Positions 48,157-51,296 of a stretch of DNA of 64,000 bases are shown in pieces. The position numbers and the translations under genes are program-made. Origin of the DNA: Agathobaculum sp. Marseille-P7918 (GTDB lineage: Bacteria > Bacillota > Clostridia > Oscillospirales > Butyricicoccaceae); the NCBI RefSeq assembly GCF_900625105.1, contig NZ_UYYD01000002.1, positions 434,001 to 498,000 on the forward strand, read 5' to 3'. The stretch's first letter is position 1. Each line of letters starts with the position of its first letter. The notes beneath the pieces were generated by a model. It did no database searches. It had not been told where the DNA came from and was given only the letters and a program-made list of their open reading frames with translations.

Positions 48157-48840
48157 ATGGCAGAGGACAATCCAACCATCCAGGCACCGGAGGAAAACAA
48201 CATTGCGGAAACCGGTTCGATCACCGCAAAGACCGCGCGCGGCACGGTACACTGCATCACGATCGTCGGCCAGATCGAAGGGCACATGGAGCTGCCCGCG
48301 CAGAACAAGACGACCAAATACGAGCATTTGATCCCGCAGATCACCGCGGTCGAGCAGGCCGAGGAGATCGACGGCATGCTGATCCTGCTCAACACGGTCG
48401 GCGGCGATGTGGAAGCCGGTCTTGCCATCGCCGAGCTGATCGCAGGCATGACCAAGCCGACGGTTTCGCTCGTGCTGGGCGGCGGACACTCGATCGGCGT
48501 GCCGCTGGCCGTCGCGGCGAAAAAAAGCTTTATCGCGGCGTCGGCCGCCATGACCATTCATCCCGTGCGCATGAACGGCACGATCATCGCCGTGCCGCAG
48601 GCATTCGAATATCTCGCCAAAATTCAGGAGCGGATCGTCGATTTCATCACCAGTCACTCGCACATCACCGCAGAGCGCCTGCAGCGGCTCATGCGCGAGA
48701 CCGGCCAGCTGACCGCGGATGTCGGCACGGTGATCTCGGGCAAGCAGGCGGTCGAACTCGGTCTGATTGACGCGGTCGGCACGCTGTCCGACGCGCTCGA
48801 CGCGCTGTACGACATGATCGGCAAATCGCCCACATCCTGA
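48157..48840 (+). CDS. tepA: ClpP-class protease TepA/YmfB-like
   Basis: 227 residues from ATG 48157 behind AAAGGAGGA. The Ser nucleophile lies in [12 protein letters not shown], and the [20 protein letters not shown] segment matches the ClpP-fold oxyanion region. TepA-like proteins are Firmicutes ClpP relatives of unclear substrate, linked in Bacillus to protein translocation and spore protein turnover. Usually next to ftsK, which is not seen here. A cluster of DnaA-box-like sites lies immediately upstream. Confidence 0.88.
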
Positions 48841-48842
48841 CA

Positions 48843-49903
48843 CAACAACAAAGGCCCCGTCACCCGACGAGGCCTTTTACTTCCAGATTTCCATAGATTC
48901 TCTTTTCCCAGCAGGATTTTTCCCGCTGTATTTATTTTTTCTGCGCGGATGGATTTCTCTTTTGTTCCCCTTCCGTTACCCTGTCACGGCGTCCGCCATG
49001 TACATCGGAATGAAACCTGGATCCGATCCGTTTTTGCAGTTTTATGAAGCTATCCATTTTTACCGGCGATGCTTTTTGCTCCGGCGATACTTTTTCTGTT
49101 CCGGTATTCCGGAAATCAAAAGCCCGGTTTGCGCGATATAAATTTGATATCTTCGGTTGACTGCTTATCTTGCTTTCCTGTTTTCACAGGATTTTTTATC
49201 CTATCGTTCACGGGAGTCGCCCGACTGCGGTTCGTTTGGTAATGAACATTTTGGTTTTTTACCTTTTTTGATACATTCGGGAACTCTATATGAATATTTG
49301 GATGCGTCTCTTACTCGGCGGGTGATCGTTCGATTCTGTTCCTGTTTGCCCGAGTCACTTTCAGCAAGTTTTGATATCATCTCAATCTTGTGCTCTGACT
49401 CGCTTTTGCGGCATCATACTCATCAGTATGCCCATCGGCCATTTGGATGCGCACTATTTTTGGCTTTTGCAGGCATCGTTACGGATTCTTTTCATTCGCC
49501 AACGCATCGTTTTTCAGGGTTCTTTCATGCTCGAACCTTACTTTCCTGCTGCCTCGATCCACTTGCATCGTCAGTATGTTTCACGGATGGATATCACGAG
49601 GATAGCTTCCTCAAAGGTGCCGTTCCTTACTTCATTCAGAAGTCGATCGCGCTTTTCAGGCGGTTCGTTTTACTGGTCTGGAACTCGCTCATTTTTATAG
49701 CTATCACCTTGATCGTTTCGGTTACAGCGTCGCGGCGAGTCCCGCGAACTGGTAGGATGCTTCTTCTGTTACCATTGGACTCACCTCTTTCTCCGGTCGT
49801 ATTTGGCTACACGCCAGTCCTTTCAGAATAAGAATGGGTTATCGCCTTTTTGTAAAGCCCCTGCTTTACTTCCCTCTTGGTGTTTGCCCTTATCTTTTCT
49901 GTG
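48843..49903 (-). ncRNA. Candidate large structured noncoding RNA (about 1.05 kb)
   Basis: A purine-rich minus-strand transcript is predicted. Promoter TTGACG (49932-49937) and TATTAT (49909-49914), 17-nt spacer; terminator hairpin 48850-48877. Between them no credible ORF exists on either strand. Hairpins include 49852-49869, 49734-49743 with 49777-49785 (nested inner stem), 49597-49611, 49518-49537, 49411-49432, 49351-49357 with 49396-49402 (nested), a GAAA-capped CCTGT/ACAGG at 49177-49190, and 48909-48928. Three stems, including the terminator, contain pairs that are G-U only on the minus strand and C-A mismatches on the plus strand. Size recalls OLE, GOLLD and ROOL RNAs, but I could not match it to any. 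Confidence 0.65.
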
Positions 49904-49908
49904 ACATT

Positions 49909-49937
49909 ATAATATCATCAACATTGCACAACGTCAA
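49909..49937 (-). promoter_or_regulatory. Promoter of the candidate large RNA
   Basis: TTGACG and TATTAT with 17-nt spacer on the minus strand; an overlapping TATAAT at 49906-49911 has a 20-nt spacer. Confidence 0.65.
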
Positions 49938-50005
49938 GTGTTATTTTCTGTTTTTTCATGGTTAATTTGCACGAAAGAAAAGCGCTTCTTTCAGCGTTTT
50001 CCCTC

Positions 50006-50122
50006 TTTTCAAGAATGGCGGATTTTGCTATAATGGTTATGTTGGGTGTGTTATCCGCCCAGCTGATCGGTAAGAAACAAATAACGCTGTCTCGGGGGTC
50101 GGTTCGACCCCCTTTTTTTCAA
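50006..50122 (+). promoter_or_regulatory. Promoter and attenuator-like leader before the second alcohol dehydrogenase
   Basis: TATAAT (50029-50034) with TTTTCA 17 nt upstream. The ~95-nt leader can form GTTAT...ATAAC and TGGG...CCCA stems and then an intrinsic terminator GGGGGTC GGTTC GACCCCC followed by seven T (about 50094-50119), all before the ribosome-binding site. I do not recognise a known riboswitch class. Confidence 0.6.
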
Positions 50123-50138
50123 AGGAGGTACAATAATA

Positions 50139-51296
50139 GTGGATATCTTCAGCTTTTACATGCCGACCCGCCTGTTCTTCGGCCACGGCGCGGTGAAAAA
50201 GCTCGCGCGCGCCCGCCTGCCGGAAGGCCGCGGCCTGATCATCACCGGCGGCACCTCGACCACCCGCCTGGGCTATGTCGCCAAGGTGGCCGACGCGCTG
50301 GCCGAAGCCGGACACGAAACCCTTGTATATAATAAGGTGCAGCCCAACCCGACCATCGAGGGCGTGCGCGAGTGCGCCGCGCTGTGTCGCGCAGAAAACA
50401 TTGCGTTTGTTGTCGGCCTCGGCGGCGGCTCGTCGATCGACACGGCCAAGGCGGTCGCGATCATGGCGACCAACGACGGCGACTGGTGGGACTACATCCA
50501 CGGCGGCACGGGCGGCGGCAAGCGCATCGCCAAGGCCGGCCTGCCGATCGTCGCCATCCCGACCACCGCGGGCACGGGCACCGAAGCCGACCCGTTCACG
50601 GTCATCACCAACGGCGAAGAGAAGATCGGCGGCGGCGGGGAAAAGTGCTTCCCGACCATTTCGATCGTCGATCCCGACTTTATGATGACCGTCCCGCCGC
50701 ACCTGACCGCGTATCAGGGCTTTGACGCATTCTTCCACGCGGCGGAAGGCTATATCGCCACGACTGCCTCGCCCATCAGCGAGATGTTCTCGCTCAAGGC
50801 CATCGAGCTGATCGGCCGCTCGCTCGCAACCGCCGTGCACGAAGGCGGCAACGCGGAAGCGCGCGCGGACGTCGCGCTGGCGAACACGCTGGCGGGTTTT
50901 GTCGAAACGCTGTCCAGCTGCACGGGCGAGCACGCCATCGAGCACGCGCTGAGCGCGTTCCACCCGGCGCTGCCGCACGGCGCGGGCCTGATCATGATTT
51001 CCAAGGCGTACTGGAGCCGCTTTTTCGAGTCCTCGGGCGACAAACTGGTGAATATCGCCCGCGCACTCGGCAAGACCGACGCGGCAAAGCCCGAGGATTT
51101 CATCACCGTCCTGGGCGAGATGCAAAAGCGCTGCAATGTCAGCGACCTGCGCCTGTCGGGTTACGGCGTGCAGCAGGAGGACTTCGGCAAGATTGCGGAC
51201 AACGCCATCGACACGATGGGCGGCCTGTTCCGCGTCGATCCGCGGCCGCTCACGCGCGAGGATATCATCGCGATTTTGGCGGAAAGCTATAAGTAA
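50139..51296 (+). CDS. Iron-containing alcohol dehydrogenase
   Basis: 385 residues from GTG 50139, behind AAAGGAGGT. Cofactor motif GLGGGSSIDTAKAV; iron-site residues in GFDAFFHAAEGY, HAIEHALSAFHPALPHG. This is the classical iron-type ADH with all metal ligands, distinct from the butanol-dehydrogenase-like enzyme at 13258. Likely NAD(H)-dependent reduction of short aldehydes. The terminator-containing leader suggests attenuation control. Confidence 0.92.
   Translation: MDIFSFYMPTRLFFGHGAVKKLARARLPEGRGLIITGGTSTTRLGYVAKVADALAEAGHETLVYNKVQPNPTIEGVRECAALCRAENIAFVVGLGGGSSIDTAKAVAIMATNDGDWWDYIHGGTGGGKRIAKAGLPIVAIPTTAGTGTEADPFTVITNGEEKIGGGGEKCFPTISIVDPDFMMTVPPHLTAYQGFDAFFHAAEGYIATTASPISEMFSLKAIELIGRSLATAVHEGGNAEARADVALANTLAGFVETLSSCTGEHAIEHALSAFHPALPHGAGLIMISKAYWSRFFESSGDKLVNIARALGKTDAAKPEDFITVLGEMQKRCNVSDLRLSGYGVQQEDFGKIADNAIDTMGGLFRVDPRPLTREDIIAILAESYK

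Follow-up and report, generated by a model that had tools for sequence, protein, structure and literature searches.

A large structured RNA with an apparently translated mini-ORF in Agathobaculum, and likely tandem mini-ORF relatives in the same order

Introduction

What is encoded by the roughly 1-kb gap at 48843-49937 in the window, the 64-kb stretch analysed here, and on which strand? A sequence-only reading had taken it for a purely noncoding, structured RNA of the minus strand, possibly a divergent member of the OLE, GOLLD or ROOL RNAs or a new class. Here we compared the locus with related genomes, and the comparison indicates that it very probably encodes an autonomous structured RNA with a translated mini-ORF.

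Transcription unit

The minus strand carries the following elements.
49909..49937, minus: promoter TTGACG-17-TATTAT with extended -10 (TG extension), from motif scan and conservation
48850..49902, minus: structured RNA of approximately 1.05 kb, from its presumed start to the terminator, based on conservation and covariation
48850..48877, minus: intrinsic terminator with a 12-bp stem, from motif scan
49176-49191, minus: GAAA-looped CCTGT/ACAGG hairpin, at the edge of the species-variable 3' part

The promoter and the terminator hairpin were both part of the sequence-only reading and were both recovered. The TTGAC of the promoter shows no variation in 22/22 Agathobaculum rows (alignment A2), and the RNA presumably begins about 7 nt past the -10 element. 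Taken alone the motif matches are weak, with four promoter-like sites in the 64-kb window against 1.4 in shuffles and five terminator-like sites against 2.4. Folding energies lie far below those of shuffled sequence, but to the same degree for either strand (z -5.1 for minus and -5.3 for plus, 20 shuffles each), and so cannot choose between the two. Instead, the minus strand is indicated by the promoter, by a ribosome-binding site with its ORF, and by covariation. The plus-strand ORFs do look spurious, as had been claimed, with the 218-aa frame broken by internal stops in 20/21 homologues. Along the RNA, the 5' three quarters are conserved, 49194-48941 is variable, and the terminator end is conserved again.

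The Agathobaculum genome has a single copy of the locus. Homologues exist in related Clostridia, with BLAST matches in 30 of 99 related genomes: 24/25 of the same genus and, weakly, six others. Purine-rich intergenic DNA folds well on either strand, as a chance structure or an eroded gene might, but presence in nearly all same-genus genomes searched, together with covariation, makes that origin very improbable.

Comparison with Rfam

Rfam 15 covariance models run over the whole window returned three tRNAs and nothing else. Over 48500-50300 at E up to 5 there were five matches, none at gathering score, the best being RsmY at the terminator end (23.2 bits against a gathering score of 57, E 0.0046). 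RsmY, ar14, mir-3660, CC0196, BjrC68 and others all fall below gathering and were taken as chance. OLE, GOLLD and ROOL, the suggested kin, gave no match even with E values of up to 5 allowed, and it is the alternative of a new class, one with no Rfam family, that stands. ARAGORN found the three tRNAs and no tmRNA in the window.

Consensus fold and covariation

Alignment A2 consists of 22 Agathobaculum rows, leaving out L012, which is cut by a contig end, and the partial L024. RNAalifold predicted 127 pairs, 34 with compensatory changes, and removal of 11 pairs inside the promoter left 116 pairs for scoring. Across these, 97.1% of cells are paired against 36-40% with partners slid, although a structure taken from its own alignment beats slid versions. 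Two-sided changes occur at 33/116 pairs against a shuffled mean of 11.2, with 0/500 shuffles as high, although kinship of the rows may beat shuffles without structure. The stronger argument for structure, in our judgement, is how many separate helices show two-sided changes. Elements of the fold include the following.
49879..49889, minus: 5' leader GGGCAAACACC, predicted partner of the ribosome-binding site GGUG-A-GUCC (helices 1-2)
49852..49869, minus: 5' hairpin GUAAAGC-AGGGG-CUUUAC (helix 3), two-sided changes at 5/7 pairs
49700..49728, minus: helix GCUGUAACC/GGUGAUAGC containing the ORF1 stop codon (helix 8)
49415..49438, minus: motif B, CCGAUGGG plus hairpin CAUACU-GAUG-AGUAUG, conserved in four genera

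Helices 1-2 are paired in 97.7 and 98.9% of cells and have no two-sided changes. Helix 8 is paired in 99.4% of cells, and one of its pairs changes on both sides. So do 3/6 pairs of the motif B hairpin, and since this covariation alters the encoded residues, it is the RNA structure that is selected at motif B. With a covarying fold, the earlier proposal of a one-strand structured RNA of about 1 kb with its own promoter and terminator is supported.

ORF1 and its ribosome-binding site

The RNA contains a mini-ORF, ORF1, behind an exceptionally long ribosome-binding site, and a possible minimal ORF is found further downstream.
49777..49792, minus: extended ribosome-binding site AGAAAGAGGUGAGUCC, complement of the 16S 3' tail, from duplex energy
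49722..49775, minus: ORF1, 17 codons, MVTEEASYQFAGLAATL followed by stop, AUG at 49775, frame and length kept
49259..49276, minus: possible minimal ORF, here AUG UAU CAA AAA AGG UAA (5 codons), from the alignment

AGAAAGAGGUGAGUCC is close to the full complement of the 16S 3' tail, which we take to be GGAUCACCUCCUUUCU; a search of the Agathobaculum assembly did not find this tail, and the duplex energies were computed with GGAUCACCUCCUUUCU. The duplex reaches -19.6 kcal/mol, against a best of -17.8 and a median of -10.4 for 45 window genes (the 45 long ORFs of the window, each credited with its best start).

ORF1 has 17 codons in 22/23 Agathobaculum rows (20 in L023) and 16 or 18 in five Butyricicoccus rows. 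Two more genera, represented by two and five rows, have 17 codons throughout. In total, 34/35 rows from four genera have 16-18 codons, with length differences of whole codons; in L030, a weak further match, there are 10. The frame has no internal stop in 21/21 A2 homologues and the stop lies at the same place in 20/21, being TAA in 17 and TGA in 4 of the 22 A2 rows. Openness of the frame alone proves nothing, as the +2 frame is open in 20/21 rows too. Together with variation at positions 1-2 of the mid codons (judged by eye; codon 9, for example, is CAG, CCG, CGG, TGG, CTG or TCG), this suggests that the ORF1 peptide itself is unselected. In the C-terminal half, pairing of the RNA is itself a constraint. 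Conservation of a mini-ORF across genera, behind a very strong ribosome-binding site, speaks against the claim of a purely noncoding RNA; ORF1 is apparently translated, and the "noncoding" label is probably wrong.

One reading of ORF1 is that its peptide is the product, the RNA being either a regulated messenger for a small protein or a dual-function RNA that also pairs with targets. The start region M[VG]xE and the frame are conserved, the peptides have 16-20 residues and are often acidic near the start, and trans-acting leader peptides are described in parts of PMC7298713. However, the middle of the peptide changes freely, its constant part coincides with RNA pairing, and the two-codon ORFs of the relatives described below are too short for a functional protein. 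We regard a peptide product as unlikely.

At the minimal-ORF site, AUG or GUG is followed at once by a stop in 17/22 rows, the window row having AUG UAU. This site was picked after viewing the alignment and is suggestive at most. Two other candidates, one of them at motif B, were dropped, as their starts or stops differ between Agathobaculum species, leaving ORF1 as the one clear mini-ORF of the Agathobaculum RNA.

Competing helices over the ribosome-binding site

The ribosome-binding site and the 3' half of ORF1 take part in alternative pairings.
49734..49785, minus: helix that masks the ribosome-binding site, formed by GGUGAGUCC (49785-49777) and GGACUCGCC (49742-49734)
49734..49749, minus: ORF1 strand GUUCGCGGGACUCGCC of a long-range helix (helices 5-7), competing with helix 49734-49785
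49206..49222, minus: 3' strand GGGCGACUCCCGUGAAC of the long-range helix, from the consensus fold

The stem at 49734-49785 had been noted from the sequence alone; it is real, and it proves to be the helix that hides the ORF1 ribosome-binding site, pairing GGUGAGUCC with GGACUCGCC of codons 12-14. Its 8 pairs form in 12/12 compact homologues of other genera, where one pair changes from GC to AU on both sides; in addition, matched G-to-A and C-to-U changes can be read from the alignment in L020. Helices 5-7, in which codons 10-16 pair with the segment around 49222-49206, have 6 pairs with two-sided changes. In the Agathobaculum consensus, the ribosome-binding site pairs with the nearly invariant leader GGGCAAACACC rather than with codons 12-14. 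As modelled, the two folds are mutually exclusive and hide the ribosome-binding site in both cases. We infer that a ribosome could decide between them.

Relatives within Butyricicoccaceae

The Butyricicoccus versions are only about 330 nt long. Among the family loci fetched, these short versions contain the promoter, 5' stem, ORF1 and motif B, and a terminator hairpin is easily recognised in those of Butyricicoccus. Upstream and divergent, as in the window, is an iron alcohol dehydrogenase and/or asparaginase gene in 13/14 family loci, L182 being the exception (calls by eye, with Pfam for examples).

ORF1 resembles a leader-peptide ORF, and with the competing helices and the terminator it supplies the parts of a transcription attenuator for a downstream gene. 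Against this, no conserved same-strand downstream gene was found, the next genes differing in both kind and strand (NUDIX-like by eye, YgjP-like, Clp protease). In the window, the gene next to the RNA 3' end is a convergent Clp protease (48157-48840, plus). Among the Butyricicoccus loci, read by eye, L074 and L072 are followed by a NUDIX-like gene in the same orientation, whereas the gene that follows L070, L071 and L073 has the opposite orientation, that of L071 being YgjP-like by Pfam. A leader of a downstream gene is therefore improbable.

Motif B used as a probe returned 51 stretches. In 31 of them the ORF1 ribosome-binding site lies upstream, and one (L111) is cut too short to tell. Another 19 lack the upstream site and resemble permease or other sequence, and one viral stretch is not homologous. 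By eye, the letters of motif B also turn up in coding sequence of other kinds, where they frequently translate as PIGTPM, as seen in permease genes.

We found no published description of this RNA in the open-access papers searched; a term search of the main text of PMC8040213, the part of that paper covered, found neither genus named.

Relatives beyond the family

When 295 genomes of the order Oscillospirales were searched with a covariance model of the compact core, 29 matched with an E value no higher than 0.1. Fifteen matches are very strong, all in the same family, and 14 are weak. Seven of the weak ones were fetched: six have the ribosome-binding site and a mini-ORF (G289, G184, G271, G057, G045, G035), and G169 looks protein-coding and was rejected. 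The pattern GTGAGTCCRATGGNNNNNGAA occurs in 20/295 genomes of the order (14 of the same family, 6 of family f23; reversed pattern 0) and in 7/393 of the class. Its sole match outside the order (1/371 genomes) heads a 61-codon ORF and was discarded. Judged by these searches, the RNA in recognisable form is rare even inside the order, and outside it none was seen in the genomes scanned. Allowing one mismatch gave 31 places in family f26 against 18 for the reversed pattern, and 40 against 12 in f23; with reversed counts this high, many such sites are chance, and those in L194, L232 and L239 head ordinary proteins.

Loci in f23 and f26, two further families of the order, share the start context GNGAGUCCRAUG. 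Most of these loci begin with an ORF of 15-34 codons, and several add ORFs of 2-4 codons in the same context, whereas in many others the first ORF stands alone. For example, the tandem ORFs read MNIE, MNS, MGK and MFM in L217, MY, MR and MT in L206, MA several times in L200, MK, MR, MA and MYK in L231, and MK four times in L244.

In 34 loci picked by eye there are 54 modules with AUG (4 codons or fewer in 26, 6-9 in 5 and 15-34 in 23) and 21 without, or 21/75. With all modules counted, first ORFs included, the share of short ORFs does not differ between AUG and non-AUG modules (p 0.45). In a 25-locus subset, with first long ORFs and search-selected modules set aside, 16/17 AUG modules (8 loci) have at most 4 codons against about 20% expected; the p of 9e-11 treats modules as independent, which modules sharing one RNA are not. 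Short ORFs follow 7/18 non-AUG modules in this subset (Fisher p 0.0009 against 16/17). Two of the 17 AUG modules, in L205, lie past a 235-codon ORF. These are two-codon modules in the same start context at 2631 and 2705 (oriented), perhaps belonging to a second RNA.

Searched exactly, GTGAGTCCR-AUG-codon-UAA has 15 sites in 9/108 f26 genomes (reversed pattern 0), and 3 GTGAGTCCR sites in the 108 genomes have UAA four codons later. UAA ends 20/26 of the ORFs of at most 4 codons. By sequence, two-codon ORFs with a strong ribosome-binding site, as in bar-like minigene RNAs, occur in f26 relatives; the window has only ORF1 (17 codons) and the possible 5-codon ORF.

These counts bear on a further reading, that the RNA is of an ordinary large, structured kind and functions through its fold (scaffold, cage or protein binding), with GNGAGUCCR a repeated binding site and ORF1 translation incidental or RNA-protecting. 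Its extensive structure, the modules without AUG, and a GAGUCC spacer conserved beyond the needs of a Shine-Dalgarno site would suit such an RNA. Yet stops come far sooner after AUG than after non-AUG modules once first ORFs are set aside, and the start, frame and stop of ORF1 are all kept, making a function of the fold alone a rather doubtful, minority reading.

The f23/f26 loci often have a divergent DUF1292-like gene upstream, present in 5/7 loci of one set, in L186, and in 13/17 loci of another set (calls by eye, Pfam for two); in 7 further loci a regular expression did not recognise one. 6S RNA (RF00013) lies directly behind the DUF1292 gene in 4/6 loci searched (L217, L206, L238, L231), so that two regulatory RNA genes flank it. 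In L215, RNase P RNA (1-320, minus) is found just downstream of a tandem mini-ORF RNA. By eye, a TGTACA-like element recurs across families, tens of bases ahead of the -35 box (L070-L074, L061-L065, L186, L231, L236) and may be a regulator site.

The Agathobaculum RNA and the tandem mini-ORF RNAs likely have a common origin, given their shared start context, the length class of ORF1 and the weak model scores; G057, a member of the same family with several tandem starts, links the family to the tandem RNAs. Against it, the Butyricicoccaceae loci have other genomic neighbours than those of f23/f26, and the sequences did not align overall.

Proposed function

Our preferred reading is that this independently transcribed RNA works by engaging ribosomes, a possibility to which we give somewhat less than even weight. 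A 30S subunit would load at the exceptionally long 16S-complementary site, and translation of the 17 codons would melt the competing helices involving codons 10-16, so that the fold would report the ease of ribosome initiation. In the tandem relatives, the start module repeated before 2-4-codon ORFs could lead to repeated ribosome loading and loss, with initiation capacity trapped or peptidyl-tRNA dropping off. As there is no consistent downstream gene, the output is most likely in trans rather than cis attenuation, possibly titration of ribosomes or tRNAs or exposure of RNA segments. Portions of PMC8708949 describe two-codon minigenes with a strong Shine-Dalgarno site and UAA as the most toxic, via peptidyl-tRNA drop-off. 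The minigenes studied there are, in the same portions, cis-acting and non-toxic, which keeps the trans action of the present RNA hypothetical.

More tentatively, the order may share a stand-alone minigene-array RNA, in which the GNGAGUCCRAUG module, behind an extended 16S complement, and mostly 2-4-codon ORFs would set translation capacity by holding ribosomes or tRNAs. The Agathobaculum version would then have acquired a large fold, with initiation at one mini-ORF becoming a structural switch.

If true, this RNA would be neither a messenger nor a silent noncoding RNA, initiation on short ORFs that yield no protein being its working step, and it would offer a natural case for how bacteria sense or limit initiation capacity. 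Mechanism aside, there is value in a covarying RNA family of 1 kb that Rfam 15 lacks, and it presents a strongly covarying new structure target in common gut bacteria.

Comparison with known systems

Besides minigene leaders, the phage lambda bar minigene RNA is another two-codon minigene case. Like both, the tandem relatives have AUG-codon-stop ORFs behind strong ribosome-binding sites. The leaders, those of axe-txe, ycbK and LEE, are cis-acting in the portions of PMC8708949 that describe them. In contrast, the ORFs here lie in a stand-alone RNA with its own promoter and are repeated in one fixed start context, and the Agathobaculum RNA has a large fold. OLE, GOLLD and ROOL, as treated in parts of PMC12286853, are likewise large, structured and independent bacterial RNAs. 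The present RNA differs from them in lacking Rfam similarity and in its conserved, apparently translated mini-ORF.

The rnTrpL/peTrpL system consists of a trans-acting attenuator RNA and a leader peptide (parts of PMC7298713). With our RNA it shares an ORF of the leader-peptide type and a proposed action in trans. In contrast, our RNA has no biosynthetic operon downstream and a different fold, and its relatives have tandem mini-ORFs. 6S RNA also stands alone and neighbours the tandem mini-ORF locus in four of the six loci searched, but it is a separate gene beside DUF1292, and the mini-ORF RNA itself has no 6S match. To our knowledge, a stand-alone RNA with both a conserved ribosome-capture module and minimal ORFs has no known counterpart.
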